NCBI RefSeq assembly: GCF_032884065.1
Contig: NC_088865.1
Location: forward strand, 42,913,152 to 42,977,151
Origin: Artemia franciscana
Taxonomy: Eukaryota > Arthropoda > Branchiopoda > Anostraca > Artemiidae
Direction of reading: 5' to 3'
DNA length: 64,000 nucleotides
The notes under the pieces are model-generated. The model was not told the DNA's origin and did not search any database. It saw only the letters and a program-made list of their open reading frames with translations. A program made the position numbers and the translations under genes. This document shows, one piece after another, positions 9,722 to 51,772 of the stretch; the stretch's first letter is position 1, and each line of letters starts with the position of its first letter.

Positions 9722-10052
9722 CTAGCAAGACACATTACCAAGCAGGGCTGCGAATAATGCAGCTCCTCCAAATATGAGATGAAGACATTTTGTGTAGAAC
9801 ATAAGTCCATATCCAGCTCCTTTATAATACTGCCATAAAGAAAATCGGTTTGTCTGATTTGTACTGTCTATCTGCTGAGCAGTCAAGAAAAGAATAGTTC
9901 CAAAATGTTCCAGATACTCCTGATATTCGAGTATTCTATCGTTCGAAAAGATCTCTACGAACCTTGGTAGATTGAGCTCAGGAATATTAGGAATATTATT
10001 GACTTCAGGAGGTGACTTTTTTTCTGGATTTTGGGTGGTATTGAGACTGTTG
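9722..10052 (-). CDS. Terminal exon of an unrecognised protein (KGAGYG family, member 1)
   Basis: Family not recognised. The exon follows a strong 3' splice site (nine T's then ccag) and encodes 109 residues to a TAG stop. Visible parts: an Asn/Pro/Lys-rich start, LPRFVEIFSNDR, an LTAQQIDSTNQT block, KGAGYG, a hydrophobic stretch LIFGGAALFAALLG, and cysteine as the last residue. The plus-strand exon at 51490-51772 is paralogous: about 24 of 46 residues are identical by hand alignment over EHFGT...KCLH. The exon begins with the third base of a codon, which matches the donor phase of the exon at 22832-22966 on the same strand. The hydrophobic C-terminus suggests membrane association, which is inference. 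Two decayed copies lie directly downstream. Confidence 0.65.
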
Positions 10053-10684
10053 CTGGAAAAAAAAATCAATTTTAATTTACTATTTAATCCGTTTTTAACT
10101 AAAGTTCAGGTTATTTAACAGCTATTATAAAACTAAAAAATTAATATTGTAGTGCTATTGATCTCTCATTAACCATATTCTGAAGTTATGAAAAGTTTAC
10201 CACATATTGAAAATTTTTTTTGCTTTTCTTAGGTTTTTCCAGAAGGTTGATTTTATATAGTTGGTTTTGATTGTTTCGTATTGATGTAAATTAGATACTA
10301 TTTAAATCTATTTTTATTGTTACATATCATACGGACAGATTGGTTTATCTCTTTTACTTTCTTTCTACGTTATGCATAGTTTTCATTTTTTTACACTGTC
10401 TCTTTATTTTTTTTATCTCTTTATATTTGCGCTAGCTAAAACTTATTTTATACTTACCTATTTTAGAAGCTAATTAAATGTTAATTGAAATTTACAAAAA
10501 AAGAGAAATATCTTGTCAGAAAGCTTCTTATAATAAAAAGAAAAAAATAAGCTTGCATGAACAGTAAGTCTAGAGGTGAGGCACGGTAAGCCATCTTCAA
10601 TAAAAAAGTCTATTAACTGTGTAATAGTTATCTATATACAAATTGTACTTTGGATTCGACTGTTATTGTTATTATTAGCTAGTT
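10053..10684. other. Intron-like AT-rich sequence, no gene
   Basis: Sits directly upstream (minus strand) of the exon at 9722-10052. If the three-exon model holds it is the end of a ~12.8-kb intron. Confidence 0.4.
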
Positions 10685-11470
10685 GTCAAAAAGTCCATCG
10701 TAACAAACTGCAAGTAGGGAGGGATGGAGCTCAGTAGAAGCCTGAACACTAAAAAATAGAATTGTGTTATTAGTAGATACATCAAAAAAATTAGCTTATT
10801 ATGTTAGTTCTAAATATATAAGATTCATTAAATTTAGTGTTACCAGTCAAAACCCACGAGCCTAAAAAAATTTGAGTGACTTTCGTAAAAGGGGGAAAAT
10901 AATTCCTAGAAGCTAAAGAATCTTAATGATAATTACACCAACAGATTCAGAGTATCAGAAAATTCTACTGTAGAGGTTTCAAGCTCCCATTGGCAAAATT
11001 ATAGAATTTAGTTTTTTTTTTTTACCAGAAGAAAGATAACAGATGCGCGTTTATTTATTGTTGTCGCGGAAAAAAAATGCACGGAGGATAGGTTTCAGGC
11101 TTGATTTGAAAAACCATCAGATATTAAAATCTTCTTCAGAAGAAATTGTGCTAAGAAAAAATTTCGGCAGGAATCGTCCGCAAAAACTTTTCCAGGTGGA
11201 ATTTTCAGTGTGAATGGAATTGTCTAGGGGAAATTTTCCTGGTGGGGTGTTTTAAACTGAAGTAAGTTTTCCATCCAGGGAATTTATTGAGAGGAGAAGG
11301 GAATATTCATGGAGGGGAGGCAAATATCCTGGCATTATTAAAAAATGGTCAGAAATTAAAAAAAAATAAGTTCTTTCAACTGAAAGTAAGAAACAGCATC
11401 AAAACTTGAAACGAACAGAAATAATTACATATATAAGGAAGTCATCCCTTCTCATTTCCTCGCTCTTTGC
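10685..11470 (+). repeat. Partial copy of the dispersed repeat family
   Basis: Shares the family start ('aacaaactgcaagtagg'), 'acgagcctaaaaaaatttg', 'aagataacagatgcgcg' and the terminal 'caactgaaagtaag ... cgctcttt' block with 1265-2895. Confidence 0.55.
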
Positions 11471-12231
11471 TCTTTTATTGTACCAAAATACAACTTGAGA
11501 TCCATAAAGCACAATATTATATCAAACTCCTTCGATGTATTAATTTTTTTCAAATAAAATCAGATAGTGAATTTAAAACTTTAATGAAATTATTCAGTAT
11601 GCGAGGGGACTACCCCCTTCTACAACGACCAGTTTTAGCACTAAATCTTCTTAGTGTTTTAAAGATACTTTTTGCATCTATTTTGAATTCTTCAAGAGTC
11701 AATTCAAAAGTCTTTGTCTTTGAGCTGGTATTCTAAAAAAAAATATTGGGAAAAAATGGAACTTTAGAGTAAAGAGAGGCTTAGCAACGGGTAGTTCCTC
11801 TCATATAAGGCTGCCACCTACTAGCTTTGTGCGCTGCTATCTCTTTAACGAACAACTTTAAAGGTAACAATTTTGAATATCTAGAAACACCCTGAGTAAT
11901 AAACTTTTATTTATATATCGTAATCAAAACTGTGTTTTTAGAGTTTCCGTTTCCACTGAAAATTTCAGTTCTGAATTTCTAGTTTTTTATTACGAGTTCT
12001 TTGATCTAATGCTCAATTAAATGTAAAGGATGACTACTTCCTACATCAAACCTAAATTTAATTTTAATTTTAATATTTATATAACAATACAACGAGAATT
12101 ATATTCATCCCAGGGAAAGTTCTCCCATACGAAAATGTAATTGGACGGGGCTCTGAAAAATATACCATTAATCATACGATAATTGTACCCACGGTTTTTA
12201 ATGTGAATTCTTCGAAACAATATTTTTATAG
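11471..12231. other. No recognised gene
   Basis: The open frame at 11467-11736 begins inside the repeat and lacks coding character. The last bases before 12232 form the candidate splice acceptor of exon B. Confidence 0.4.
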
Positions 12232-12575: not shown

Positions 12576-13815
12576 CTTCTATAATTAGCTGAGCTTCATG
12601 GGTAGCTACGTAACTTGGGTGTAAAAGCGTGCTTTTCAAAGTTTCAAGCAGAATCCCCCACCTACACAAAGATCTAGCGGTCCTTCTGTATCATGGCTGG
12701 TGTGCAATTATACATTACTGTATATAATTCAATGAAGCCTCAAGTGAATAAACTTAATCAAATGAAACTTAGCCTTTTTTCCTTTTTTGTTTAACTACAT
12801 ACACCTTAAAGAAATAATGTGCCATTGTGCGGCATTATTGAACATGTAAAAGCTACATGTAAAAGCTACAATATACAGTTTTATTGAACATTTTTAATTG
12901 ATTGATTATCTTACTAATGTTTCGTCGATTACTTTTTTGCAAACTTTGAGCCAAAATTAACTGTTTGTGCCACGAAATGGGATAAAACACCTCTTTATAA
13001 AAAAAGAAAATGTTTTTTATGATGGACAGTGAATATCGATGAGACTGCTCTCGATATTCTAGGAGCATAAGTACGAATGCCCGTGAGGAAAAAAACACCA
13101 TATAAACGAACATGCATCCAGGTTCCTTCTCTTAATAAGAAAAGTTTATAATAAAAAAAAAACTACTTTTTTAGATGAGAACTCGATCCTTCTAAACTAG
13201 ACTTCTATAATTACCTGAGCTTCATGGGTAGCTGGGTAACTTGGGTGTAAAAGCGCGCTTTTCAAAGTTTCAAGCACAATCCTCGACCTACAAAAAGATC
13301 TAGCGGTCCTTCTGTATCATGGGTGGTGTGCAATTATACAATTACTGTATATAATTCAATGAAGCCTCAAGCGAATAAACTTAATTAAATGAAACTTAGC
13401 CTTTTTTTTTCCTATTTTGTTTGACTACATACACCTTGAAGAAATAATGTGACACTGCGCGACATTATTGTACATGTAAAAGCTCATTATACAGCTTTAT
13501 TGAAAATTTTTAATTAATTGACTATCTTACTAATATTTCGTCGATTACTTTTTCCCAAACTTTGGGCCAAAATTAACTGTTTGTGCCACGAAATGGGATA
13601 AAACACCTCTTTATAAAAAAGAAAAATGTTTTTTATGATGGACAGTGAATATCAATGAGACTGCTCTCGATATTCAAGGAGCAGAAGTACGAATGCCCGT
13701 GAGGGAAAAAACACCATATAAACGAACATGCATCCAGGTTCCTTCTCTTAATAAGAAAAGTTTATAATAAAAAAAAATACTTTTTAGATGAGAACTTGAT
13801 CCTTCTAAACTAGAC
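12576..13815. repeat. Tandem duplication, two ~620-bp copies
   Basis: Copy 1 (about 12576-13200) and copy 2 (about 13201-13815) align along their whole length with an offset of 626 bases at 'gagcttcatgggtagct'. Shared anchors include 'gatctagcggtccttctg', 'tgtgccacgaaatgggat' and 'gatccttctaaactagac'. Only scattered substitutions and small indels separate the copies. A minus-strand open frame in copy 1 (12853-13113) is broken in copy 2 and is not considered a gene. Confidence 0.85.
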
Positions 13816-14000
13816 TTCTCTGATGTGCAACTGGATCAAATTTTCTGAGATTCGTAGCTTTATGTGAGCCCTTTTCAACTCAATAAACCTTGTATATTGG
13901 GAATTGCACAAACTGTCATCATAGTTTTCTTTTTAAGTGAGGGATCTGGTTACTATTAGCACAAGTCACTCTTTACTTACAGTTTGTTGGCAAGAATTAA

Positions 14001-15052: not shown

Positions 15053-16643
15053 AATATATATATATAAAAATATAAGTAGTTTGTGTGTTTTGTGTTGACT
15101 GACGTCATGTTTGTGTATCGAATGACGTCATTATAAGGATTGAGCATTATGCCGTCATGAAATTGTTTGTTGACTCACTTTATGTTTGTCGATTGACAAA
15201 ATTACAGACCGGGGCACCGGGACACAAATGACGATCGGGACACCGGGACGCAGGGAATATAAATGACGACCGGGACACTCAAAGAGAAATTACAGACTGG
15301 GACACCAGGACAAAAATATCGACCGGGACACAGGGAATATAAATGACGACCGGATAACAGGGATACAACTACAACGGGGACGACGGGGGGCACAGGGGAG
15401 GATATATAAATGACGACCGAGACACATGGAATGTTTAATTAGCAATCACCATCAACAAAGCTCAAGGGCAATCATTAGAAAAATGAGGTATAGATCTGAA
15501 TACGCATTGCTTTTCCCATAGACGACCGGGACACAAATGACGACCCGGACACTGGGACACAAATAACGACCGGGACACAGGGAATATAAATGACGAATGG
15601 GAGACAGGGACACAACTACAACGGGGACACCGGGGCACAGGGGGGATATATAATTGAAGACCGGGACACAGGGAATATTCGATTATTAATCACCATCAAC
15701 AAAACTCAAGGGCGATCATTAGAATAATGAGGTATAGATCTGAATACGAATTGTTTTTTTCCATGGGCAACCGGGACACAAACTACGACCGGGACAAAGG
15801 GAATATAAATGACGACCGAGACACTCAAAGAGAAATTACAGACCGGGACATCGGGACACAAATGACGACCGGGGCAATCATTAGAATAATGAGGTATAGA
15901 TCTGAATACGGATTGTTTTTTCCATAGACAACCGGGACACAAATGACGACTGGGACACAAGGAATATAAATGACGACCAGGACACTCAAAAAGAAATTAC
16001 AGACCAGGATACCGGGACACAAATGACGACCGGGACACAGGGAATGTTCGATTAGCAATCACCATCAACAAAGCTCAAGGGCAATCATTAGAATAATGAG
16101 GTACAGATCTGAATACGGATTGTTTTTCCCATGGACAACCGGGACACAAATGACGACCGAGACACTAAAAATAAGTTGTTTGTGTGTTGTGTGTTGACTG
16201 ACGTCATGCATGTTTGTCGACTGACGTCATTATAAGGATACAACGACAACCGGGACACCGGGACACAGGGAATGTAGATGACGACCGGGACAGTCAAAGA
16301 AAAATATAGACTGGGACACCGGGACAAAAATGACGACCGGAACACAGAGACATAACTACAACGGGGACGCCGGGGGATATATAAATGACGACGGGGACAT
16401 AGGGAATGTTCGATTAGCAATCACCATCAACAAGTCTCAAGGGCAATCATTAGAATAATGACGTATAGATCTGAATACGGATTGTTTTTCCCATGGACAA
16501 TTATATGCCAGGTAAACCGAATTGACAGGTAAACCTGACAATCTGAGTGGGGGGGCCCACAAACTAGGTGTTGGGGTGGCGATATACACAGACAATGGGA
16601 CAGCGAAGAATGCTGTATATTCGCAAGTTTTACGTAGTTAAAA

Positions 16644-16755: not shown

Positions 16756-17622
16756 TCAAAAGGCCCTGTCAAGATTGTGGCCTCTATTAGGTTTTCCATT
16801 GTTTTTTTTTACGGCAAGTCGAGTGCCATTGCAAAGCTTTGGTGGGTTTATATTTTTTAAAAGTATTATTGGTACGCCTATTTTTAGTTGTAGCACGTGT
16901 GGTGGAAACCCTGAAAGATCTATGGAATTTAAAAATTCAGATGGATAATTAACCGCTTCATTTGGTTCCAAAACTGTGTCGACTGACTTGTAAAGGACTG
17001 CCTGGTCTCGAATCTTGGTCAAAACAATATTGTTGATTTCGTGGACGTCTATATTTTTGGGTGCGAGAATCGCTCTTTCACTTAGCCATTTATTATTTTT
17101 ATAATTTTTTAGAATATTCGGAAATACTTTTTCAATCAATTCATTTTTGGACGTCACTAAATTACAGAAATCAGAAGGTAGTTTTATACGTCCTGAAATT
17201 GAGTCTACTGGGAGCTTTCCGCTTCCCATTGCCAGCAATTGATCTGGAAATGTTTGACCAAAGTCATCGTTTTGCAATCGGACACGCATATTTGTAGTTA
17301 ATTTTAATGTTTTTACGTGTGTCTATAAATTAGAATTTTTCAGGCAAGCATTCATTTCGTCTGCAGGAGTGGATCTAGGTATTATAGGTAATGTTTGCCT
17401 GAAATCTCCCGCAAGCAATATTAATGTGCTGCCAAAGGGTTTCGACTTCCCTCGCAAATCTTTCAAGCATTGATCCAGAGCCTCGAGCGATTTTTTGTGT
17501 GCCATTGTGCACTCATCCCAAATAATAAGTTTGCATTGCTGCAATACTTTACCCATCCCAGATGATTTGGAAATATTGCACGTGGGAGTTTCTGTAGAAT
17601 GCATGTTCAGAGGCAATTTCAA
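16756..17622 (-). pseudogene. Helitron H1 helicase, middle and C-terminal part
   Basis: Two frames. The first (17323-17622) holds the Walker B-like IIWDECTMAHK and the motif LLAGDFRQTLPII; it ends at a TAG where H2 has tryptophan (NLWAH). The second (16756-17289) starts MRVRLQNDD and runs through VLTKIRDQAVLYKS and LKIGVPIILLKNINPPK. Motif order matches Pif1-type helicases. The last ~90 residues, with the INKAQGQS motif, are missing because the element is cut at the (TA)n near 16741. Confidence 0.85.
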
Positions 17623-17652
17623 AGCGGAATGAGCAGTTCTTCCACCAGGCAG

Positions 17653-19785
17653 CTATGTTGCGGCTATTCCGGACGACGAAATTGCCAACGCTATATCATT
17701 TTTTGATCGAATTGATGCCAGAATTAGTTTTATCACAAACGTTTTACCAGTACCTCCTGGCACATCCAAAAAGAAAATTTCTCCAACGTTGTTATCGACA
17801 CAATGCATTATCGTATCATAAATGTCTTTTTGTTCCGACGTTAACTTGGAAATGTTATTTTGTACATACGACAATAGATCACTCGTACTGTAACTTTGTT
17901 CACGATCCAATTCTACACATGTCGAAACATCAGCGATACGGTTAGGTGAAGGCATTCCCAAATCCTGAAGAGGTTTGTTTGCCATACGTACGCACAAATC
18001 TTCTATAACAACTAAAGTGTAGTTATAAATTTCTGATATAAAATCAAAAGTCATATCTGACGTCTCTAACTGTTTTCGATGGAGTATATCTTCGGACATT
18101 TTTGACTTATATTTTTCCCATAACTCTGTAGGTGCTGATGGAGAGCAAGTTGTTAAAATGATGCCAAACAATGCACGAATTTGACTTGGGGTTGACGTTT
18201 CGCACGCGTCATTGATGCAGTTATCCCAGTGTTGGTCATTCTCCAATAAATTCAGAGCTTGGCATGCACTACGGTGAGTGTCATGTATAGTACCATTTAC
18301 AGTCCTCAAATACTCAAAGGATGTCGGACCGGGTACATTCACCAAAAGCAGGCGTAGAAAGAAGCATTCATGTTGATTGGGGTGAACGGTGTAGAGTCTT
18401 CCTATCGTGGTATCTTTGAAGATGGTAGGTTGGCCGTCGACTGACTTACCCTGTTTTCGACGTTCAAATACTTTATTTTTAGTATTCCACGTGTAATACG
18501 AAGGCACTTCAGTATACAGCAGTTTTTTTGCAAAAGAATCATTTTTGCAAAGCGAAAAAAAAGCTGTTAATGTTGTATCCGGTGGATTCAGGACTCTTTG
18601 TTGCACGTTGGTTTCCGTGAAATAAACACGTTGACCATTCTGTAAATGTACCGCTAAGTGAACAACAGCTGGACTACGTTCATGTATCGGAAATGAAAGA
18701 ATTCGCCCAACAGCTTCATTACTGCTTATGTATCTTCCAGCCTGAAATTGTACGATTTCATCGAAATCTTTGATTTCGGGCTGCAAGCCAAAAACTGCCA
18801 TGTCACTGCCTTTGTTGACGTATTTGCATATGTATTTGATTGCCTTTAGGGAGTTACAGTATTCAACGTTTATGTGTGCATTAAACATTTTGGATAATAA
18901 TGGAGAATATGGAACAACCCACTGGTTATCTACTTCGATGGTGGTACCGTTACGCTTCTTTATTATTGCTGTTTTACCGCCAACTTCAGTAGATCTTCTT
19001 CTATATTGTGGGTAACCATCATTGCCAGTAATTGTGGTTGATACTAAAAGTCGAGGATATTGCTTTGTGCACCTTCCTTTGGCCATGCATGGTGAATTTT
19101 CGTTCAGTGCACCGCAAGGTCCATGCATCATATTTTTTACAATAATATCATGTAACCCCTTATCGACATTTTTATCAGGTATTTCAGCGGAAATCACATC
19201 ATAAATTTCGTTCGAAGTAATTTTTTTATGTAGCCAGATTAGTATATGTGCGTGTGGCAAACCTCGTTTTTGCCATTCCACTGAGTACATCCAGCATCGC
19301 ACTGACCCAAACACTTCAAGTTTTACTATGAAGTTTATCAGTGATTTCAACTTTTGCCGGAAGACACGGGCCGTAATGTCATGCCTATGAACCGCCGATT
19401 GTCCTTGAAGTAAAAGCTGCAGTATCTCGTCCCAAGATTGATTACATATAAATGTAATAAATAAATCTGGACGACCATAGAGACGAACATACGCAATAGC
19501 ATCTTGAGCATATTCAACTATATGACGGGGACTGCCAGCATATGACGAAGGTAAAATTGTTAATCTTCCAACGTTTGTGGTATTACCGTCATTTATAACT
19601 GCAACTCGCAAATGAATGTATTGTTCAGAGCGGAGCTTGGTCTGATTCAGGCGGATATATAGCAAACGTTCTGATTCAATTTTAGCATACATATCAACGA
19701 CGAATTGGTGAAACAATTCACGGCATTTTAAAATATAATTTTCTTCATCCTGCCGAATCATTAGTCTATAGGAATAATAATGCAT
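17653..19785 (-). pseudogene. Helitron H1 Rep domain and start of Pif1-like helicase
   Basis: Frame of 710 residues encoding the rolling-circle replication part. The metal-binding HUH motif is visible as GLPHAHILIWL (His 178 and 180), and the two catalytic tyrosines as YICKYVNKGSD (Tyr 318 and 322). This part nicks DNA and joins ends in Helitrons. A helicase domain starts near residue 630 with Walker A PGGTGKTF. The frame ends at SSSGIAAT, where a TAG replaces a leucine codon that H2 keeps (AAILLPGG). Rep motifs are complete here, unlike H2, but the protein is truncated. Confidence 0.9.
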
Positions 19786-19829
19786 TGCACTTCATTTCTT
19801 GTTCATTTCTTTGTTAGTGGCTGGATTCA

Positions 19830-21116
19830 TCAATTTAATATTAAAGTGATAGCCACGGCTCCATCCCAAAAAATGATAGGATATTGTAGGGCATCGTAGC
19901 ATCGATGAGTTTCAGCAATTCTTAACAACTGAGCGTTTCGCTTATGAAGAATAATATCTCGAGGTAAAAACTGATCACCGACCATAACGATTGCCACTTC
20001 GTCGATAGTTAGAGCATTGTATCTACGCACATGTTGGCCAGGAGGCGTTTTGTCAGCGGAAATAACAATTTTATGCGTATCAGTAGGCATCAAATCGATG
20101 GCTGTTTTGTACAGACGCACAAAATTATTATTTTCGTGGAAAAGATGTTGTAATTGGGAAACGATTGTCCTTTCAACGTTGGGAGAAATTTCGCAACGTG
20201 CATTCAATTCAGAATTTCTATCACTGATGAAGTACAATTGTAAAAATTTATGATTCTCGCCTGAGAATGGTAGAAGGGACCCTGCTCTATGATAAATTTG
20301 CCCTTTTACTTTGAAAGTAGACATAAATTGATCTGGATTTTCGATTTGGGCTCCAAACGACGTCATTTGGAAACATGAGTTGTATTTTCTGATTTTTGAC
20401 AAAAAACGCTTAGATTCTGACGTAGTTCCAGTAAGGAAAGTATTCAATGGCTCTGGTGGTGCAGCCAATAGAGGAAGTTTAACTTTTCCTGAGGCGCAAC
20501 ACATTCCCTTTGTTTCACCATTGAATTTCAAGGCCTTGCAATAAGGGCAAATTTTAGACATTGTCCCGATTTGAACACATCTACTCAAGCTATAATCATC
20601 GACTGGGTTGTACCTGAATGCCAGGCGATAACTTTCAGGTTGCTCTGATTCCTCGGCACGCTTTCTTTTCTTACTTTCTCTATCAGCAGCAAGCCTGATT
20701 TCTTGCTGTTCTTGTAATTCCTCGGCACACCTTCTTTTTTCACTTTCTCTTTTAGCAGCAAGTCTGCTTCCGCGTTGCTCTGGTAGTTCCTCCGCACGCT
20801 TTCTGTTCTTTCTTTCTCTATCAGCCTCAAGCCTGTTTCCTTGCTGTTCTTTTGATTCCTCGGCACGCTTTCTGTTCTTTCTTTCTCTATCAGCCTCAAG
20901 CCTGTTTCCTTGCTGTTCTTTTGATTCCTCGGCAAGCCTTCTTTTTTCACTTTCTCTTTTAGCAGCAAGTCTGCTTTCGCGTTGCTCTGGTAGTTCCTCG
21001 GCACGCTTTCTTTTCTTACTTTCTCTATCAGCAGCAAGCTTTTTAGCATAGACTCTTCGAGCATCTTCATCGGCTTTTGCCATTGTAACTTCATCAGTCA
21101 TTGTAAACTTAAACAT
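19830..21116 (-). pseudogene. Helitron H1 N-terminal region (charged repeats plus zinc-binding-like block)
   Basis: Frame of 428 residues. Residues about 20-165 are imperfect ~23-residue repeats of the type RKRAEELPEQRESRLAAK, predicted to be helical and strongly charged. A Cys-rich block follows (ICPYCKALKFNGE, then GMCCASG), then a conserved region up to the Rep domain (RYNALTIDEVAIVMVGDQF). It should continue into the Rep frame at 19785, but a small frameshift near 19855 and a TGA near 19795 (where H2 has TGC) separate them. The start chosen is the Met of MFKFTMTDEVTMAK, shared with H2 and with the duplicate at 21430. Such N-terminal regions are typical of animal Helitron transposases. Confidence 0.8.
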
Positions 21117-21157
21117 TAATAGATTTCCACGTGAACATATGTCTTAAATATCTTGAA

Positions 21158-22831: not shown

Positions 22832-22966
22832 CTTGCATTAACGTAGTTGGTTTCATTGCCAAGTGTTGTTGCGAATTCTGGAAGCTCCGTAACAGCCATT
22901 TCAATATCTTTAGTAACTTCGTTTTCTTCTGAATTTAAGGCTAACATGAGATCTTCAAAAATCTTT
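22832..22966 (-). CDS. Internal exon of an unrecognised protein (candidate exon 2 of the KGAGYG gene)
   Basis: Not recognised. On the minus strand 'ttttttttccag' precedes the exon and 'CAAG|GTATAT' follows it. The 135-base exon starts with the third base of a codon and ends with two bases of the next, so both boundaries are phase 2 and length is a multiple of three. It encodes 44 whole codons beginning KIFEDLMLALNSEEN and ending LGNETNYVNA: acidic, hydrophilic, with an N-glycosylation sequon (NET). The donor phase matches the terminal exon at 9722-10052 and the acceptor phase matches the donor of 34274-34524 on the same strand. Linking all three gives one open frame. Membership in that gene is inference; exon character is well supported by splice sites and codon use. 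Confidence 0.55.
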
Positions 22967-25203: not shown

Positions 25204-25626
25204 AATGACTGAAGAACCTACAATGGCAACAGCCGAGGAAGCTGCTCAAAGAGTCTATGCCAAAAACTTGCGGCTGATAGAGAAAATAAGAAAAGAAAGC
25301 GTGCCGAGGAATCACAAGAACAGCAAGAAAACAGGCTTGTGGCTGATAGAGAAAGTAAGAAAAGAAAGCGTGCCGAGGAATCACAAGAACAGCAAGAAAA
25401 CAGGCTTGCGGCTAAAGAATGCAAAACCGCGCAGTTAGATGAAAATCCAACTGGACAGCGAGAGTCAAAACATATCAAAACTGAAAATGATAGCGATGAT
25501 GATTGGGTTTGGGATTTTGACTTGGATAAGGTCATCAATGCCTACCAGATTTTAGTTAAAAAACAAAGGTTCGGCGATAGGTATTTCATAGTGACGCTCA
25601 AAAATAAAGAAGAAAAAGAAAACTGA
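25204..25626 (+). pseudogene. Helitron-borne ORF with an unusual C-terminal segment
   Basis: Starts MTEEPTMATAEEAAQRVYAK like the Helitron N-terminal ORFs. One A is missing near 25265, shifting the frame. In the second frame the KRKRAEESQEQQENRLAA repeats continue to 25420. Then comes a segment not seen in the other copies: TENDSDDDWVWDFDLDKV followed by INAYQILVKKQRFGDRYFIV, ending KNKEEKEN and TGA. This ~55-residue piece has a regular protein-like composition. It could be a captured host exon, a known Helitron habit, or a Helitron-specific short protein. I cannot identify it. The full ORF needs the frame correction, so as it stands it is broken. Confidence 0.6.
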
Positions 25627-25683
25627 AAAAAGAAAAAAGGTGAAAAACTAAACAAAACTAAAAAGAAAAAACAAGCAACGAGA

Positions 25684-25900
25684 AATTACAGACCGGGACA
25701 CAAATGAAGACTGGGACAGAGGGAATATAAATGACGACCGGGAAACTCAAAGAGAAATTACAGACTGGGATACCGGGACACAAATGACGACCGGGACACA
25801 GGGAATATAAATGACGACCAGGACACAGGGACACAACTACAATAGGGACGCCGGGGGCACAGGGGATATATAACTGATGACGGGGACACAGGGAATGTTC
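25684..25900. repeat. 'gaccgggacac' minisatellite
   Basis: Units such as 'gaccgggacacagggaat' alternate with 'aaactcaaagagaaattaca'. Same family as at 15205-16400, 48400-48590, 59815-60060 and 60530-60925. Confidence 0.75.
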
Positions 25901-26090
25901 GATTAGCAATCACCATCAACAAAGCTCAAGGGCAATCGTTAGAAAAATGCGGTATAGATCTGAATACGGATTGTTTTCCCATAGACAATTATTATGTTGC
26001 ATGTTGAAGAGTTGGTAAGCCTGACAATCTATTTGTATGGACAGACAATGTGACAGCAAAGAATGTTGTATATTAGAAGTTTTACGTAGT

Positions 26091-26326
<236 letters not shown>

Positions 26327-26439
26327 AGGTGGGACACAGGGACACAACTACAATGGCACGTAACTAATATTGCGCGTAACGACTTACGTGCGTGGGAGGG
26401 GGCTTGGGAGGATGCAAAGCGCCCCCACCAACTAGGTAT

Positions 26440-26605
<166 letters not shown>

Positions 26606-26649
26606 CGGCTCAGAGAAAAATTACCATCATATTTCGGTTCAAAGAGAAA

Positions 26650-27410
26650 GTATCACTAATGTCAAAGAGAAATTATCGTATAATGTCACCAAAAAGGAAA
26701 CACCAGGAGGAAACGCCAGAGCAACGCAAAACCGAGATTGCGGCTGAAAGAGAAAGGGCCAGATTAGGAATGTCCAATTTATGTCAACAAAGGTGTGTCG
26801 AGGAACCACCAGAGAAACGCGAAGCCAGGCTTCCAGCTGACAGAGACAATAAGAAAAGAAGGCGTGTCGAAGAATCACCAGAGAAATTCGAAACCAGGCT
26901 TGCGGCTTTACGTCAACGAAGGCGTGTTGAAAAACCACCAGAGAAACGCAAAACCAGGCTTCCTGCTGACAGAGACAGTAAGAAAAGAAGGCGTGTCGAA
27001 GAATCACCAGAGAAACTGGAAACCAGGCTTGCGGCTTTACGTCAACGAAGGCTAGTCAAGGAACCACCAGAGAAACGCGAAACCAGGCTTGCAGCTGACA
27101 GAGATAGTAAAAAAGAAGGCATTTCGAGGAATCACCAGAGCAACGTGAAATCAGGCTTTAGTCTTTACTTCAACAAAGGCGTGTCGAGGTATCACCAAAG
27201 CGACGCGAAACCAAGCTTCCAGCTGACAGAGATAGTAAAACATGAAGGCGTGTCAATGTATTACAAAAGCAACGCGTGTATAATCGCCTGGCAAGTACTG
27301 CCCTTCCGATGATTATAGCTTGAGTCGAGATGTTCAAATCGAGACTATGTCTGAAATTTGTGCCTATTGCAAGGCATTGAAATTTAATTGCGAAACAATG
27401 GGAATGTGCA
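26650..27410 (+). pseudogene. Hel4 N-terminal charged-repeat region and Cys block
   Basis: Opens after the (TA)n. Encodes repeats of the type KRRRVEESPEKFETRLAA alternating with shorter LRQRRRVEKPPEKR units; a frameshift near 27115 moves the last repeats to another frame. The Cys block EICAYCKALKFNCETMGMC (27350-27408) matches H1/H2. Directly after GMC the sequence jumps to the end of Rep, so about 1.6 kb present in H1 is deleted. Confidence 0.7.
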
Positions 27411-27583: not shown

Positions 27584-27602
27584 ACTTCTCAAGCATTCGG
27601 AA

Positions 27603-27992: not shown

Positions 27993-28039
27993 CCATTTGG
28001 GATGGGTAAAGTACTGCAGCAATGCAAACTTAGTGTTTC

Positions 28040-34273: not shown

Positions 34274-34524
34274 CTTGAATTACCATCAACAGATCTCCCA
34301 CGACGTCGTGAAAAAATTGGTTTGAAAAGACGCGAGAAAATTGGTTTGTTCGCCGTGGTATTTCTACTTTGGCGTCCCACTGCGTTATAACATTCAAAAA
34401 GAGGACCTAGAGTACCAAAAGTTATTTTAACTACCTTAATATCTTTATTCATTTCAATGGCATTAACAAAAACTGAAAATAAAGTAACACAACCTAATCT
34501 AATAACTTTATTTTCTTTAGTCAT
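34274..34524 (-). CDS. Candidate first coding exon with signal-like N-terminus (KGAGYG gene)
   Basis: Not recognised. The exon ends at a consensus donor (TTCAAG|GTAAGT). From the chosen Met it encodes 83 whole codons plus two bases (phase 2). Residues 1-22 (MTKENKVIR, LGCVTLFSVFV, NA) look like a secretory signal. The second half is basic with an internal duplication (KPIFSRLFKPIFSRRRGR) and a possible furin-type site before SVDG. Phase fits the acceptor of 22832-22966. Weak point: bases above about 34430 overlap degenerate tandem repeats, so the signal-like part and the start may be accidental. An alternative acceptor 'tttattttcag' lies inside the frame near 34475 but has phase 1 on its own side. 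The 3' half is the reliable portion. Confidence 0.4.
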
Positions 34525-34959: not shown

Positions 34960-36410
34960 TTGTAAGTTTAGACTTAATCTAAATTCAGTTTTAACTTAAA
35001 CGAATTAAGGTAAGACTTAATCTTAGACTTAATCAAGTTTAATTTTACCCATCAAAAGTTAAGAGCCTGAGAAAATTTGCTTAATTTTGGAAAATAGGGG
35101 GACGCCCCTTAAAAGCCATAGAACCTTAACAAAAATCACACCCTCAGATTCAGCGTATCAGACAACCCTATAGTAGAAGTTTCAAGCTCCTATCTACAAA
35201 AATGTGGACTTTAGCATTTTTTTTTGCCACAGGACAGATCACGGATGGGTGTTTATTTGTTTGTTTTTTTTGTTTTTTTTTCTCTCTAGGGATGATCGTA
35301 TCGATTCAGTGGTCCTAGAATTTCGTGAGATCGCTCATTCTAACACAAATTAAAAGTTCTAGGGCCCTTTTTAAGTGACCAAAAAAATTGGAGGGCACCT
35401 AGGCCCCCTCCCACATTCATTTTTTCCCGAAAGTGACCGGATCAAAATTCTGAGATAGCAATTTTATTCAGAAAAGTCGAAAAACCTAATAACTATGTCT
35501 TTGGGGACGACTTACTCCCCCACAGTTCCCGTGGGAGAGGGCTGCAAATTACAAACTTTGACCAGTGTTTACATATAGTAATGGTTATTGGGAAGTGTAC
35601 AGAGGCTTTCAGGGGGATTTTTTGGTTTTTGGGGAGGGGGTTATAAGGGGGAACTTTCCATGGAGAATTTGAAATGGGGGAAGAAAATTCCTATTAAGGG
35701 GTCACAGGATTTTTTAGTATTTATTTTTTGAAAGAACAATGAAAAAGTAAATATGATAAGTTTTTCAACTGAAAGTAAGGAACAGCATTAAAATTAAAAC
35801 GAACAGAAATTATTATGCATATGGGAGGGTTAATCTCCTCCTAATACTTCGCTCTTTACGCTAAATTAATTTTATTAATTTCAACTATTTATTCTACGAC
35901 CTTTGTGATTCAGGGGTCATTTAAGCTTTAGTGTAAAGAGCGAGGTATTGACGAGAGGGTGAACCTCGTCATATTCGTAATAAAAACATGCGAATATAGA
36001 AGTTTGGTACGTAAGTTAATTCGTAAGTTACGTATATTTTTACTACTAAAAACGTTCGTAAAAAATTAAAAGTTCTATTGCCTTTTTAAATAACCAAAAA
36101 ATTGGAGGGTAACTAGGCCTACTCCCCCGCTCCTTTTTTCTCAAAATAGTCCGATCAAAACTATAAGAAAGCCATTTAGCCATAAAAATAAATTAATATG
36201 GAAATTTCATTTTAACTATTCATGTACGGAGAGCCAAAATCAAAACATGTATTAATTCAAATACGTTCAGGAATTAAATTTTAAAAAAACAAGTTTTTTT
36301 GACCGAAAGTAAAGAGCGATATTAAAACTTAAAATGAACAGAAATTACTCCATAAATGAAAGGGGCTGTTCCCTCCTCAACGCTCCGCTCTTTACGCTAT
36401 TAGTAAATTA
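34960..36410 (+). repeat. Second long copy of the dispersed repeat family
   Basis: Colinear with 1265-2895 from 'catcaaaagttaagagcctg' through 'ccagtgtttacatatagtaa' to the MITE left arm 'ctcctcaacgctccgctctt'. The copy breaks off inside the hairpin module, where the RTE-like sequence begins. Confidence 0.65.
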
Positions 36411-36419
36411 CTGTAGTTT

Positions 36420-37745
36420 TTGCAAATTACTTAGTAATATGATACTTTTTAGACTGAGACATGCTGTAGACAAAGTTTTAAGAGAAGAAGAGTGCGGTTT
36501 TAGGAAAGGTAGAGGATGTGTCGACCAATTTTTCACTCTTAGGTTAATAATTGAGAAGTCCCTTCGTTGTCAAACACCTTCGGTCCTCAGTTTTATCGAT
36601 TATAAGCAAGCTTTCGATTCTGTTGATAGAAGAGCGATAGCAAAGGTCTTATCCTTATATGGTATACCAGAAAAATACATTAAAGTGATTTGTGCTATGT
36701 ACGAGAATAATACTACTGCGGTTAAGGTAGGAAATGAGGTTAGCAACTGGTTTTGTACTAAATGAGGAGTTAAGTAGAGTTGTGTTCTATTCCCCTTTAT
36801 ATGGATCATTTTGATGGACTTCGTCTTTAGGAGCACAGGAAAGGCGATTGGAGACCAAGGAATCAAATTGGGAGGAAAGACGCTCCAGGACTTAGATTAT
36901 GCTGATGATTTAAGCATATTAGATAAAAGTGTGAGCGAAAGGAATAAATTTTTTCAGGTTTTGCGAGTTCAGGGTGCTAGAATAGGTTTGAAAACTAATG
37001 TTAAGAAAACTATGGCACTAAGGCTAGGAATAAGTGAAGATGAAAAGGTGACATTGGGTAACAAAAAGCTTGATCAGGTTGGCAGCTTCACTTACCTTGG
37101 TAGTATTATTAGTAAAGACGGTTGGAGCAGTGAAGATGTTAAAAGTAGAATAGCTATGGCTCAGGGTGTTTTTTCACAGTTAAACAAAGTTTGGAAGAAT
37201 AGAAAGATAAGTCTGCAAACCAAGATTAGAATATTGAAAGCTACAGTGATGACAGTGGTCAAATACGGCTCTGAAGGATGGGCGCTCCGAAAAGCAGACG
37301 AAAATTTACTAGATGTTTTCCAGAGAAATTGCCTACGGATTATTCTAGGTACCCGGCTGACTGACCGTATTTCAAACAGTAGGCTGTACGAAAAACGTGA
37401 TTCAATCCCGCTTTCTAGGGCTATAATAAAAGAAAGGTTGAGATGGCTAGGCCACATTCTGCAGATGAAGGATGACAGATTGCCGAAGATTATACTTATT
37501 GGCCAACCTTCTGGGGCTACACGGAAAGCAGGTCACTGTCGTTTGGGAGGATGTTATAAATAAAGATTTAAAGGAATTGGGAACTTCTTGGGAGGGTGTA
37601 AAGAGGGAGGCCTTTAATAGAATAGGTTGGAGGAGGGGCTTGCGTAGCTGTGTTGGCCTCAGGCGGCTTGGTGCTGCAGTGAGTTACTTTCTCTATGCGA
37701 ACTCAATTTTACAGGTAAAGATGCTCAGGGAAATTGTCCGGTGAA
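36420..37745 (+). pseudogene. RTE-like non-LTR retrotransposon reverse transcriptase, 5'-truncated
   Basis: Encodes palm motifs of a LINE reverse transcriptase: EECGFRKGRGCVDQ, motif A FIDYKQAFDSVDR, then after a TGA and TAG near 36764-36776 and a frame change, motif C LDYADDLSIL. Further on come VGSFTYLGSIISKDG, YGSEGWALRKADE, VFQRNCLRIILG and RLRWLGHILQM, typical of the RTE/BovB-like C-terminus. A second frame change near 37530 puts the end (INKDLKELGTSWEGVKREAF) in another frame. No endonuclease is present. The product would copy RNA into DNA at the target; this copy cannot. The left junction lies inside a MITE/dispersed-repeat copy. Confidence 0.85.
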
Positions 37746-40204
37746 GGGAGATATTTGACCAGCTTGGAATTATCTAGAATTTTTCTGCAGGAGGATGGGA
37801 TTCTCATGAAAAAAATTCTCCATGGGGGTGTTTTCCACAGGATGAATTCTCCGGAGAGAATTTTCTGCGGAAGCAACATTCTATTAGGGGGTGAGAGCGG
37901 TGGCAATTTATAGGAAAACTGTTCGACGGAGGAGGGAATTTCTGAGATGATTTTTATAAAAATAAAAAATTTAAGTTTTTTTCAAATAAAAGTGCGCTAA
38001 GAAAAACCGTTCATCCATAATAGTCCGCAGAAAATTTTCTGGGGGGTGGAATTTTACGCTAAAATGGCATTTTCCTAGGTGAATTTCTCTAACGAGGGGG
38101 GAGGCTCTTTTACATAGGAAGGGCTTTCCATGGATTTTCAAGCCCTTAGAAGATTTAGGTGACAGTCAGGGGTGGTTCGAAAGGGGAGGCTAGGGGAAAA
38201 TGCACCCCCTCCCTCCCCCAAAAAAATTTGTTTGCACCCCCAATTGTTTTTTTCTTTTTTTACCCCTTTTTTAAGTGAACTTTTCAATTTGGTCAATTAT
38301 TGGTGTCCTTGTCACATGACTCCTCTCCCAAGATTTTGTTCTAGATCTGCCGTAGGGGATAGTAACCCTACTTCTGTTTGTTTTCTTTTCCGTTTGTTCA
38401 AATTTCCGTTCGTCTAGAGGTAAATTTACGGTATTCATGTACTGATTTGCTGATTTGCAGACCTGAGTTAAGGTCAGAGTAGCATCTTTAAGTACTCGTT
38501 CATTTCTTACAACACTGTCTTTCCAAAATTGTGGGAAATCTTAGGAAAGCCAAACTCTCACAAATTTATCTACCATAATGGATAACCTGGATGGAAATAT
38601 TTGATGGTAACTGGTAAAATTTTATTGCTACCCCCATCCACCCATTTCTGCTATTTCTTTATTTCTAAGACTAGAAAAAGATTCTAGGAAAATCGTTACC
38701 AACTTTGAACATAAACAAAAATCGGGCTGTGGTAGTACATTTCGTGACAAATCACCTTTCCCAAGGCCTAAAGTCAAAGAAAATCAGACTCACAACCAAA
38801 ATTTGCTGGTTTTTCTACTTATGTTTTAGTCTGAGTCAAAGATGCATGCTTTCAAACAATTGCTAACCCCTAACAAGAAGAAGAAATGTAAAGTTAAGAG
38901 CCTGAGAATACTCACTTTGCCTCAACGCCTTAAATTACCTAGCAACCATTCACTTAACGGTCATTCTACCTTTAAAAAATAGGTTTAAAACGTACCACTA
39001 TAGAATCTTTGAAGCCTCAAAAGAAGGAAAATAGAGTAGTAAGAAATAAGTAGCAAGAATAGTAGTAGTAGAATTAACTGAGAAGAATGATTCTCAGGCT
39101 AATAAAGCTCACTATTTAAGAGTTAAACTTACTTGAAAAAATATAAGGTCCTATATAGCTAAAAAGATAGTAGAATAGCAGTCCAATCATGTTTATAAGT
39201 CCAGCTATAACTGACAAAAATCTGGACAAGGTATAGTGAAACAGCAGCTCACTTTTGATTGGATGTCCCAATCCTATACCCTGAATCTAGTTACTCTTAC
39301 GCGATTGCTCAACATTCGCTTGTATGTTAAATCTTATTCATTTACTAAGTTTAATCTCACCCATAATCTATTAACAAAAACCTAAGAGTCTATCGATTGC
39401 TAAGAACAGTAAGTAAAGGGGAGCATTATTTCATATTAAGTTTTCTCCTTCTTCTGCCATGGTGTATTTGAAGAAATATTAAAGTTTACTACAAGCCAAT
39501 CATGTCAATGAATGGGGGATATTTACCTCCCCCCTTAGATTTTGGACGACACATTTTCATTATTCTCATCGAAACATACCTTTTTGGTGTTTGAACTAAC
39601 ACCCCTCCGCCTAGTACACCTTTTATTTTGAAAAATAAATTTTTGTCTCCCTCTTCTACATTTCCATAAATTGACAACACGGTACTTTTCTGTTAAGCGG
39701 AACTCACTCAAGAATTACACTGTCTAAGACCTGACAAAGATCGATTTGCGTCTCTGGAATCGGTTACGATTTACTTATGAGTGAGAAAATTACAATGTTG
39801 TTATATTTTAATTAAATATTTAATATTTAGATGTGGTTAGGAGTTAGGTTAAATTAGGTTAGGTATTTAATATAATACGTTCTGCGTGGAATGCTTTCCA
39901 TAATACTTTGTCGTAGTTTCCATAATTTTATTTTTTAAGTATTATATTACATCATGTTTTGGTATTTTTCATTAGGATTAACCTGTCTTCACCTTTTAGG
40001 TTTGTCAACAGACAATTACCAACACCAGTGATACCAGCTCTCCTCTTTTGTACAAAAAAAAGGTCTTTATAGGTCGAATCCTTTTAAATAGAAAGGATAA
40101 GAGGCTACACACTCATATCCCCTCCCAAAATAGTGTAATATTTAGGATTTGCAAAATCAGGATCTAGTATCATTAGTTCGCTAATTCAGGCCTTTTTGAG
40201 CAAC
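37746..40204. other. No recognised gene; repeat fragments at the left
   Basis: 37746-38170 contains G-rich pieces of the dispersed repeat family ('aattctccatgggggtg'). 38170-38420 holds a C-rich stretch ('gcaccccctccctccccc'). The rest is AT-rich without coding signal. Confidence 0.4.
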
Positions 40205-45571: not shown

Positions 45572-46565
45572 TTAAGTATTTCTATGCACTCTAATAAGAG
45601 GAACCGCAACGGATGCCGCAACTTTCCTAAAATGAACTATTTCAGCATAATACATATTTAATTCCAACGAACAAAATTTTTGAGAATGGGACAGGAGGTG
45701 AAAAGGAATTCTGATTCTACAGAGAATATCATCTAATACGCAGTGATATAAGTTTACGTCTATCCTATCCCATAGCTGTTTCTGAAACCATTTCGGATTA
45801 CAACGGCTAGGGCAAAAAAAAATTAAAATAACAGTCACTTCCAGGTGAGAATGATCACTAACAAAAATTTCATCCGATACTTTAACAAAAGTCTTTTTTA
45901 ACGATTCAAGATCTGAAATTATAAAGTCCAAATTTGCCACGCTACTTGAACTATGAACATAACCATAATATTTGCTAGTTATAGCCACAGTTAGATCTTT
46001 CGGAAATGATGATAATAAGAGCTTGGACCACGGTAAACTAGGAATAGCAAGGTCAGTGTTAAAATCGCCACAAAGCAAGATGGCTCTACCAGACGCTTGT
46101 ATTTCATGAAAAATTTTTGAGACACTTGCACATGCTATAGCAAAACGTTAGTTAGATTGTTAGTTCCTGTAATTAGTAGGCATATAAACTGCAAGGATAG
46201 CGGTATGGCCTAGATCAATCACAACAAAAGTATCATTGGTATCAAATAAAGCACGTTTAATGCTCTTATTTACTCCAATAATAATGCCGCCAGAGGGACG
46301 ACCTACTTTGATTTTCACAGGACGGATGAAGAACTCGTGTTCAAAAGAAACTTCCAACTGATGACTATTAACGCTACTTAAACTGGGGCTCTACTACAAA
46401 TACTATTTCGAATGATTTGACTATTTTGGCAAAAAGTGTTAACCTATCTCTTCCTCCATTTATGTTCTGAAAATACAAGTTTATGCAGTCAGGTTCGGTG
46501 TGAAGGTTCATACCTGCGGGAGGGGGGTTACCAGCCTCAAGCTTGAGTGCTCGAAGGAGCGACAT
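45572..46565 (-). pseudogene. LINE AP-like endonuclease
   Basis: Three frame pieces. 46374-46565 has the start NLYFQNINGGRDRL. 46160-46357 has FIRPVKIKVGRPSGGIIIGV and TAILAVYMPTNYRN. 45572-46078 has MLCGDFNTDL, ANLDFIISD and SDHSHLEVTV. GDFN and SDH are hallmarks of the catalytic core of LINE endonucleases, which nick the target DNA. The pieces lie in different frames. Confidence 0.8.
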
Positions 46566-47436
46566 GCATACGGCTCTTCAAACTGGTGCAGGAGAAGCTG
46601 TTGTTTCTGTGATTACCACCACAATTTGCATATTTCACAGTGGAGGCTGAACATGCATTATCATGGTTGTTAACATTTGGTCTGGCACATTTACCACATT
46701 GAAGTGCATTCACACATTCACGTGCAAAATTATCAAATCCTTGGAATCTATAGCACTGCTTGGGTCGATTCAGTGGAGTTGACACCCAGAAAAGCGAATA
46801 ATCAATTTTGTTGCCGTACTTCAGAGCCTTATCGAGATCCTTTTGAGATTTAAAGGACAACTGCACGACTAAACTACTTCCAAAGCAATTTTCTTGCACA
46901 AGAGAGTTAACTAGACCTGTAATATTTGATTCGTCAAAGCCCTTGTCAATCCATATAATTTCTAGATATTCCTTCTTTACGATCTTAGCACTGATGTATG
47001 AACAGGGTGGTAGGGAGCTTACCACCGAAGAGGCAGAATCATTATCTTTCATAAACACCAGTAGCCTATCTCTCCGTTCCTCGACATGGTCGATTTTGTC
47101 CAAGCACCCTAAACTCGAAACAAACTCCCTCTGCTAAGCGGAGTTGGAAGACTGCATACTAGCGGGTAAATTACTAAAAATGACAGCGACTGTAGCATTT
47201 TCTGGTTTAGGAAGGAAAGGCCATAAACGGTTTCGTTCACCCGTATCCGTGCAAACTGACTCTTGTTTTTCAGTGAGGAAATTTAACATTCGAACACAGT
47301 CAATTAATCTTGATGCCAAAATAGTATTTGGTTCGCTCGGAAAAACCGGAACATCTGACGGGTCCGATATTCGATGAAAAACCGGGTCGATGAAAAACCG
47401 GAACTCGGAAAATCGCAAATCGTGGAAGAAGATCAT
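46537..47436 (-). pseudogene. LINE ORF1, gag-like with zinc knuckles
   Basis: Two pieces: 47134-47436 (N-terminal, ends NLPASMQSSNSA and a stop) and 46537-47103 (188 residues). The second contains a nucleic-acid-binding pattern of cysteines and histidines: CYRFQGFDNFARECV, LQCGKCARPNVNNHDNAC, YANCGGNHRNNSFSC. This resembles the paired CCHC knuckles of Jockey/I-type gag proteins, with some ligands changed (for example Phe for His/Cys spacing in the first). It would bind element RNA. The reading frames are interrupted, so it is inactive. Confidence 0.7.
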
Positions 47437-47440
47437 CTTT

Positions 47441-48069: not shown

Positions 48070-48399
48070 TACCTCAATTGTTTTTTAGGTCCAGAACGGG
48101 CCAACAACTGCAAGTTGCTTCAAGAGTATAGACCTCAGAAAGGAGCTCTAGAAAGGAATCGGCGATCGTTATTTAACACAGCTTTATTTAGAGCACAAAG
48201 GCAGAACAATGAGAATGTAACTAGGTAATTATAATAAGTTACGCGCCATATTAGTTATGCGCCATTGTAGTTGTGTCCCTGTATCCCTGCATAAAATTGT
48301 CCATGGGAAAAACAATCCGTATTCAGATCTATACCGCATTTTTCTAATGATTGCCTTTGAGCTTTGTTGACAGTGATTGCTAATCGAATATTCCCTGTG

Positions 48400-48590
48400 T
48401 ACCCATCGTCATTTATATATCCCCCCCTGTGCCCCTCCCCAGCGTCCCCGTTGTCCCGGTCGTCATTTGTGCCCTGGTCTATAATTTCTCTTTGAGTGTC
48501 CCGATCGTCATTTATATTGCCGGTGTCCCGGTCGTCATTTGTGTCCCGGTGTCCCGGTCTGTAATTTCTCTTTGAGTGTCCCGGTTGTGC
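48400..48590. repeat. 'gaccgggacac' minisatellite (reverse orientation)
   Basis: Reads as 'gtgtcccggtcgtcatt' units on plus. Same family as the other Helitron minisatellites. Confidence 0.7.
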
Positions 48591-48613
48591 AAGGAATAAG
48601 AACAACTTCACAC

Positions 48614-48919: not shown

Positions 48920-49143
48920 TGTAGAATTTATACTAAATATTCTCTTTGAATCACAAGCCTTATATACTTATAATGACGTCATATAAAAAGCCTTACATAA
49001 AGAAATAATGGCACCAGCTTATAATGACGTCACATACATAACATACAAAATACATACATGACGTCATAATGCTCAATCCTTATAATGACGTCAATCCTCA
49101 AACATACAAAAATACATTCAACTTATTTTTATATATATATAGA

Positions 49144-51489
49144 TTATTATAATTCCGGGAAATGATAGATTTTTCCTTTTCCTTTTGTTAATCTTTTAGT
49201 ACAAAACTTTATCGTCAAAAACGGAAATTGTTAAAAACGGCAGGAATTTTTGCCGAGGATCATTAAACGCAAATGACGCAGCACGATTAAGAGTATTTAT
49301 GGTTAGGGGAGGGGAAAGGGGACAGTAGCCGATCTCCTGCTTGAAATGTTTTTGTTCGTTTATGTTTCACATTTTAAATTCATTTTAATTTTCACTTATT
49401 TTGAGAATTATTTATTCATCTATATCTTTGTGTGTAATCTTTATGGCTAGTATGATCATTTATTTTAATTTATGTTCGTTTTGGGTTTCACGATGTCTCT
49501 AAAAGTATTCTGTGGTCCTCTTGAGTTTGAATTATTGTAGGACTTTATTTCTGCTGATCTTAGGTTTAAAAGGGCTCCGAAAATTCTTTGAAAAATCTCT
49601 TTTTTGGACTTTTTTTGATTATTGTGAGAAATAGACATAACTTTACAATCAGAGTTTCATTCTAAATCCAAATTCTGATGCAATTGAAACACTTCCTTAG
49701 AAAATCATAAATTTTGCTTAGAAAGTGGGAAGATTCTTCTTTTTTAAACAATTATGAGCGTATTTTTCGATCAATTAACGTAAATATTGTGATCTAGTAG
49801 ATAGATAACCCTGAGTCTTAGCTATTGTATGATACAGGAGTTGTCAGTAAAAGTTTTTGATTCACTGATAATTGAGACAGCTGAGATGTAGGATTACCTT
49901 TAGAAGCAGATTTTTATTCTGTTTCCAAATGTAACATTCTTTTCCGTCGCAAAGTTTTAGGTTAAGCTAGTGTGCAAAAAACGTATTTTCCATTCGTGAC
50001 TCTTTCCTTGGAGTTGATTTAACTTCAAAAAGCAAGAAAATGGTAATATGCGCATTCATTACAGATAAACCTTTTGGGTTTAACACCACTAAACAACGTG
50101 GGAGGGGGGACTCTTTTGGTAGAAATGAATGCTATTTTTGGAATCAGAAAGAAATTCTAATTCTAAAATTATGTCTATTTCTTAGTTATGTCAGTAATAA
50201 GTAAATAAAAGAATTACCAAATTGTCACCTTACACCAAAATATAGAAACCGTATGATTGTAAATAAAGTCAATACCAAACACTGGTACTAGGATATGAAC
50301 CTTGATTTTTTGAAATTTCTGGTATGACTGGCAACTCAAATTAGGTGACAAGTTAGCTGTAAGGGTAAAATTCTTCAGGCCCTAAGACTTCTAGAATCTA
50401 TAGAAGCTACTACCAGGGATGAGGAATCTTATGCTCCTTAATATTGAAGGAGCATAACTTGCTTTGAAAATATTTTAACTAATATGGGATAGCTTTTGAG
50501 TAGAATTACATGGACAAATTAAAGGGAAAAATTATTCGCAATTCAGGTCGGGAGCTGCCATATAAAATCGTAATTTACGAAGTACTATCTATTATATTTA
50601 CAAAAATTTGAAGTTAGCATCTGAAGTACAACATAAGGCCCCCTGCGTGTAAGCAATGACAACTGGACTTCGTTTTATATGCACATTGAGCTTCAGTCGT
50701 TCTTTGAGATTATTCAATTAATTAATTTTTCTTTTCAAATAAAATTAAACTGTGCCTTTAAAACTTAAAACAAATATAATTATTCCAGACATAACAGGAC
50801 TATCTACTCAACCCCCCTCCCAATACTAAGGCCTTACAGTGCTTGATTAAATATGTACTTCTTATTTTAGATCAACAGCCTTTGTGTTTGAGCGGTCGCT
50901 CTTAAAGATTTGGGATACAAAATCAAACTTTTATATGTTTCTCCCCATTTTTGACAACTGTTTAATATCTTCTTCTTATAACTTTTGATTGGTAGTGTTA
51001 GATTTAACGAATATTGCATATGTACAATTGATACACTATCTTCTTTTTCTGCTTTTTCTAACGGTAGATAAAAGTTAGCCTACATTCATTTAATTATTCA
51101 TTTTACATTAAACAATTTGATATCTCTATTAAAAAGGCTTCCATTGAAAAATATAAGCACTTTAGATTATATTTGGGATTATAATGACCTTTTTTAAGGA
51201 ACAGTTTTTCGTCTAAAATAAAATTATCTTTATCACTATTAGATTTTTCTTTTAGATAATTGTTGATTCCTTAGCTTTGATTTGGTTTTACTTGCCTCTA
51301 TTCATATCGCAAATAAGGCTCGCGAAAATTCTAAATTGTCAATGGGATCAATTTTCAAATACAATAATATACTCTTTTGTAAAACAAGGAAAAGTTTTGA
51401 AAAATTTGCTATTACTGTAGCAGGACCTATATAAACATCTATTTTTATACTGTTACTTCAAAATTTTATTTTTAAACTTTTATTTTTAG
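49144..51489. other. Mostly unique sequence, no gene assigned
   Basis: AT-rich with many stops. It ends in the acceptor of the exon at 51490, so part of it is probably intron. A short acceptor-like stretch at 50045-50120 (DKPFGFNTTKQRGRGDS) is noted but lacks a phase-compatible donor. Confidence 0.4.
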
Positions 51490-51772
51490 TCAAAATTCAG
51501 AAGCTGGAACCTCAGAGCCACCATATATAATACGACTTCTTGCAGATGATCGTACTTTCGGATTTAGTGAACTTCTTGAATCAATAGGGACTATTATTGT
51601 TTTAACAGCACAAGCTATTGATACAAGCAATCAAACCTACCCTAACCCGTTACCACGCTGGGCACGCTTCAAAGGGGCGGGATATGGTACAATGTTTTTT
51701 GCTAAGATCATCCATGCTTGGCTTGATGGAATTCAGATATTGTTCAGCAAAGTTTCTGCAGAACTATGCTAA
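51490..51772 (+). CDS. Terminal exon of an unrecognised protein (KGAGYG family, member 2)
   Basis: Family not recognised. The acceptor 'tttatttttag' is followed by a frame of 93 residues to TAA, starting with the third base of a codon (phase 2), exactly as in the paralogous minus-strand exon at 9722-10052. Shared features: LLADDR against IFSNDR, ESIGTIIVLTAQAIDTSNQT, RWARFKGAGYGTMFFAK, and a final cysteine (AELC, against NVSC). Member 2 lacks the strongly hydrophobic tail and ends in an amphipathic stretch. Conservation is at protein level while DNA has diverged, which argues for a real gene. Upstream exons were not found in this window with confidence; none of the candidate exons at 5080, 12232 or elsewhere on plus is clearly linked. 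Confidence 0.65.

Follow-up and report, generated by a model that had tools for sequence, protein, structure and literature searches.

The 64,000-nucleotide stretch of Artemia franciscana DNA analyzed here (the window) corresponds to C3:42913152-42977151 of a 1.27-Gb Artemia genome assembly (1,270,528,402 bases, 6468 contigs) and contains two terminal exons of what is, as judged from the sequence, a real, conserved, and clustered protein-coding family without a name in the libraries searched. The two exons belong to neighboring, divergently oriented members of a tandem family of six genes (G1 to G6), namely, G2 on the minus strand and G3 on the plus strand, and we consider it somewhat more probable than its opposite that these genes encode small proteins of the secretory pathway. 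What began as a similarity spotted by hand is now a gene family that can be tested, with coordinates for its exons, in a cultured model crustacean.

The terminal exon of G2 (exon C, as in the other members) is located at positions 9722..10052 (-) and encodes a conserved C-terminal domain of 109 amino acids ending with a TAG stop codon, and that of G3 is located at 51490..51772 (+) and encodes the corresponding domain of 93 amino acids ending with TAA. They are preceded by the acceptor sequences TTTTTTTTCCAG and TTTTATTTTTAG, respectively, and in both cases the first base of the exon completes a codon, i.e., the exon starts in phase 2. Coordinates, strands, stop codons, acceptors, and phase had been proposed in an earlier note on this DNA, and all of them were confirmed on re-reading. 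The two proteins are identical in 32 of 83 aligned columns, and their Smith-Waterman score of 159, compared with a maximum of 51 among 5000 shuffles of one partner, indicates that the similarity survives shuffled controls; none of the remaining stop-to-stop frames of at least 30 amino acids in the window (1136 in all) scored above 41 against either exon. The earlier count of about 24 identities in 46 residues was a fair estimate, since a hand recount on the alignment, from the DR to the MF motif, yielded 27 of 48. At the DNA level the alignment is not significant (the observed score was reached by 26 of 1000 shuffles), the numbers of identical sites at codon positions 1, 2, and 3 are 43, 50, and 28 (each of 81), and 4 of 12 four-fold degenerate sites at identical residues agree. 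A nonsignificant DNA alignment combined with better agreement at the first two codon positions than at the third is the pattern of an old protein-coding homology, in line with the low DNA similarity and retained protein that had been noticed at the outset.

A genome search with exon C of G2 revealed six matches, all of them on C3 (expectation values [E] of 1.5e-70 to 0.011). The four terminal exons outside the window, whose limits were read by hand, are those of G1 (C3:42875743-42876016, -), G5 (C3:43001057-43001399, +), G4 (C3:43019261-43019606, +), and G6 (C3:43042846-43043287, +), and all six are confined to one 168-kb cluster. This cluster is divergent, with G1 and G2 on the minus strand and G3, G5, G4, and G6 on the plus strand, which explains the opposite orientation of the two window exons. 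The query with G6 gave four matches, all within the cluster, and that with G5 gave nine, i.e., the six members and three sequences elsewhere with E values of 0.40, 0.55, and 4.55; queries were made with three of the six members (G2, G5, and G6), and the match counts are lower bounds because only the best candidates are scored. The three weak G5 matches outside the cluster (C1, C4, and C16) are regarded as chance; two of them were rejected on the basis of the family profile, with which the frame on C1 scored 9.7 bits and that on C4 scored 5.5 bits. No further copy was detected among frames of at least 60 amino acids in the 20 kb past each end of a 200-kb stretch around the cluster (best E value, 0.23), where many frames presumably derive from transposons. 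When each member was left out in turn, a search of the 4765 frames in the 200-kb stretch with the profile of the other five recovered it with E values of 2.1e-19 to 1.0e-27, and the best nonmember had an E value of 0.69 or worse, with reversed frames reaching 0.91.

All six terminal exons start in phase 2, and their alignment contains nine invariant columns. Phylogenetic analysis grouped G1 with G3 (support of 97/95) and separated G1, G2, and G3 from G4, G5, and G6 (94/91), within which the branching was not resolved. The ratio of nonsynonymous to synonymous substitution rates (dN/dS) in exon C of the closest pair, G1 and G3, is 0.14 (84 codons), which argues for purifying selection acting on this pair; three further pairs of the 15 have ratios of 0.22 to 0.30 at dS values above 2, and synonymous sites are saturated in 11 of the 15. 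The shared exon boundary of six copies together with the low dN/dS ratio of G1 and G3 bears out the initial proposal of paralogous terminal exons of a protein family. The final cysteine, considered a shared trait of the two window exons, is indeed present in G1, G2, and G3, but it is a feature of only three of the six members.

Upstream of the terminal exon, each gene has a candidate exon B that is in frame with exon C (phase 1 in, phase 2 out). The search required phase 2 at the 3' end and set no condition at the 5' end, where phase 1 can be read in all six. Support for these exons differs in degree, with homology for G1 and G3 and with only reading frame and splice sites for G2, G4, G5, and G6. 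Exon B of G3 is predicted at 48089..48224 (+), with the acceptor TTTTAG/GTCC and the donor AACTAG/GTAATT (slashes denote exon boundaries). It is homologous to exon B of G1, to which it is about 40% identical (tblastn E values of 8e-8 and 5e-8 in 200 kb); G1-G3 is the only significant pair of the 15 (its score was reached by 0 of 500 shuffles), and the score of the next-best pair, G3-G6, was reached by 32 of 500. The G2 candidate at 34274..34406 (-), with the acceptor CTCTAG/GTCC and the donor TTCAAG/GTAAGT, does not align significantly with any other exon B and is proposed on the basis of its frame, its splice sites, and the TAG/GTCC acceptor context common to G1 and G3. For G5, G4, and G6, long open frames are located 1.2 kb, 2.7 kb, and 7.0 kb upstream of the terminal exon, with in-frame phase-2 donors CAAG/GTAAGA, GAAC/GTAAGT, and TGAG/GTAGGA, respectively. 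In the pair G1-G3, the evolution of exon B is more rapid than that of exon C (dN/dS of about 0.52 versus 0.14; dN 0.46 and dS 0.87 over 44 codons), and in both genes exon B contains an R-N-R-R motif, which we take to be a furin-like site. The first part of the G1 exon B occurs as five tandem repeats spaced about 218 bp from each other, of which only the last contains the whole exon (C3:42881660-42882680, -); located in this array, the exon was missed with masked upstream regions and found by comparing unmasked frames. A probable extra exon of G2 (22832..22966, -; 44 codons, phases 2 and 2) would leave the gene in frame whether included or skipped; its coding-plus-splice score is 15.5 versus a best of 7.3 in 12 Markov shuffles, and no homologue of it was found.

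First exons were sought, at a stricter and a relaxed threshold, as frames in which an ATG is combined with a hydrophobic stretch and a phase-1 donor. At the stricter threshold, one signal-peptide-like first exon each was obtained for G4 and G6, compared with averages of 0.05 and 0.03 in 60 shuffles, and signal-peptide first exons are therefore plausible in these two genes. Two G2 frames obtained at this threshold correspond to the frame now read as exon B of this gene. The relaxed threshold provided weak candidates for G1, G2, and G3, among them a G2 frame at 39133..39190 (-) with a hydrophobic start, 19 codons, and a phase-1 donor. Since the candidates vary from convincing (G4 and G6) to weak or none, secretion of the family products is rated as probable.

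AlphaFold2 models of the two window proteins, each calculated with the other one as the alignment, both contain two long helices, with low mean predicted local distance difference test (pLDDT) scores of 57.2 and 56.9. The best 19-residue hydropathy ranges from 1.32 to 1.85 across the family, and K70 and H73 of the second helix are invariant. Exon B contains one cysteine each in G1, G2, G3, and G4 and none in G5 and G6. In G1 and G3, exons B and C together contain a single exon B cysteine and a cysteine as the last residue, and one may reasonably suppose that these two form a disulfide, since there are no others; such a bond would not be a family trait, as G5 and G6 lack cysteines in both exons.

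From these observations we infer the functional properties of the family, i.e., secretion, disulfide, furin-like site, and helices. Tandem duplication would have given rise to six divergently arranged genes whose products are diversified forms of a single small protein, either secreted or associated with membranes. The first exon would supply a signal peptide, and the product would therefore enter the secretory pathway. Exon B would contribute a fast-evolving, mostly basic middle part, including the furin-like R-N-R-R of G1 and G3, and exon C would be the functional module that has been conserved, folding as two long helices that probably form an amphipathic hairpin packed on itself, on a partner, or on a membrane. 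The two cysteines of G1 and G3 would pair in one disulfide, and partial tandem copies would decay beside the genes.

Several observations weigh against this secretory reading. Signal-peptide-like first exons are missing for G1, G3, and G5 at the stricter threshold and for G5 even at the relaxed one, the mean pLDDT is only 57 in both structure models, and G5 and G6 are free of cysteines in exons B and C. In addition, exon B has no significant alignment in 14 of the 15 pairs, and a coding-score scan missed exon B in two genes, G4 and G1 (the latter in the masked array), gave preference to an internal phase-2 acceptor in G5 (42999711), and favored a different donor for G6. The gene models as a whole were read from the DNA alone.

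One rival, which we hold to be quite possible although less likely than not, is that other crustaceans or arthropods have this family too, already annotated there (possibly under the label of hypothetical proteins), and that it appears as an orphan because the libraries are thin in that area; this rival bears on novelty rather more than on the mechanism. Searches in Pfam with the six exons and six joined products (four of these without a first exon), in PDB with the two window exons, the six-exon profile, and one joined product, and in NCBIfam and PHROGs with the two window exons gave no significant match. Two scans of viral contigs yielded 57 and 34 pattern matches and one scan of prokaryote genomes, made with the two-sequence alignment only, yielded 50, none of which was confirmed by tblastn. 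Weak matches with E values of 0.058 to 2 (a membrane protein, prolyl isomerases, a glutamate mutase, CopD, a viral peptidase, and one PHROG) were taken as chance. The description of the family as unrecognized thus stands for Pfam, PDB, NCBIfam, and PHROGs and for the viral and prokaryote searches only, none of these libraries being a eukaryotic proteome, and the strong divergence of G4, G5, and G6 from G1 to G3 is what an old family would exhibit. The lack of Pfam matches and of a PDB match to the profile nevertheless speaks against a known family, and four family peptide strings were not found in the literature searched; in broader literature searches, with arthropod proteomes outside their scope, the family was not recognized among the matches listed.

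The insect Osiris family (PF07898/DUF1676) provides the closest comparison. Its features include an AQXLAY motif near the C-terminus, a signal peptide, a two-Cys region, and a putative transmembrane domain, and homologues are reported nearly exclusively from insects (PMC3284338). The Artemia genes share with Osiris the clustering of paralogues and products in which a signal peptide and a hydrophobic helix are probable. Unlike Osiris, they do not match PF07898 at E values up to 10 (two window exons, six exons, and six joined products), and AQXLAY is absent by eye from the six terminal exons and the exon B candidates. With regard to the other Osiris features, candidate first exons with a signal peptide are plausible in G4 and G6, weak in G2, and absent in G1, G3, and G5 at the stricter threshold; as to the two-Cys region, exon B has one cysteine in G1 to G4 and none in G5 and G6; and as to the transmembrane domain, the best 19-residue hydropathy is 1.32 to 1.85.

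Another explanation, which we consider rather unlikely, is that the products are membrane or intracellular proteins whose second helix is a transmembrane segment, the hydrophobic first exons being chance findings or not joined to the genes. In G2, G4, and G6, the best hydropathy comes close to values typical of transmembrane segments, and first-exon candidates are convincing in only two of the six genes. However, the invariant lysine K70 and histidine H73 are located in this second helix, and first exons of the kind proposed for G4 and G6 turn up less often in shuffles than in the actual sequence. Secretory-pathway proteins remain our preferred reading. Its more far-reaching version, a secreted two-helix domain that arose in the brine shrimp lineage, has no relatives outside it, was duplicated into a divergent cluster of six genes, and serves a trait of hypersaline life or encystment, is rather unlikely.

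Lineage-restricted tandem families of small secreted proteins are a kind rather than a family, and nothing specific about function follows from such an assignment. The Artemia genes share with them the birth and decay of copies, the probable signal peptide, a conserved domain next to a fast-evolving region, and tandem copies at one locus (six within 168 kb). If relatives are missing elsewhere, the genes would represent a lineage-restricted and probably secreted family in which a fast-evolving middle accompanies a conserved core; if there are relatives, they could be recognized by the nine invariant residues and by their exon phases.

It is very improbable that the terminal exons are pieces of a transposon that were moved to two places. 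Internally repeated sequence makes up about half of both the window and the 200-kb stretch, but the six significant or near matches are all at one locus of the 1.27-Gb genome, the intron phase is the same in all six, purifying selection is indicated, and exon C of both G2 and G3 is located in unmasked sequence. A transposon origin was rejected because queries with G2, G5, and G6 revealed no scattered copies, the three weak G5 matches being the only ones outside the cluster (counts that are lower bounds). A chance similarity of two open frames, with a probability close to nil, is refuted by the shuffle control (159 versus 51) and by the leave-one-out profiles, which recover each of the six members.

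Directly downstream of the G2 stop codon, a decayed partial tandem copy of part of its terminal exon is located at 9549..9625 (-), with a DNA alignment score of 62 versus a maximum of 29 in 1000 shuffles. Among the other features of the window are long frames that we take to be Helitron replicase-helicase-like (16756-21143, -; 54510-59159, -; fragments at 25213-30361, +), with (AT)n arrays nearby. Two different kinds of non-long-terminal-repeat retrotransposons are presumably represented by a reverse-transcriptase-like frame (36313-37563, +) and an endonuclease/zinc-knuckle-like frame (45572-47133, -). A related 26-27 bp minisatellite with GACCGGGACACAAATGAC-like units is present at 15195-16034, 25702-25896, 48482-48585, and 60594-60926, and three of these four sites adjoin Helitron-like frames. 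For a female A. franciscana assembly, the published account gives 8.81% Helitrons and a guanine-plus-cytosine (GC) content of 34.71% (PMC11492255). The GC content of the window is similar to this value. A transfer RNA (tRNA) match in Rfam (63560-63640, -; 38.2 bits) is absent from the ARAGORN output and could be a tRNA-like repeat. Further repeats are a tandem array of a 286-bp unit at 61298-62857 (5.5 copies, 76% matches) and a direct duplication of about 620 bp at 12576-13824, which consists of several blocks that are 85-97% identical.

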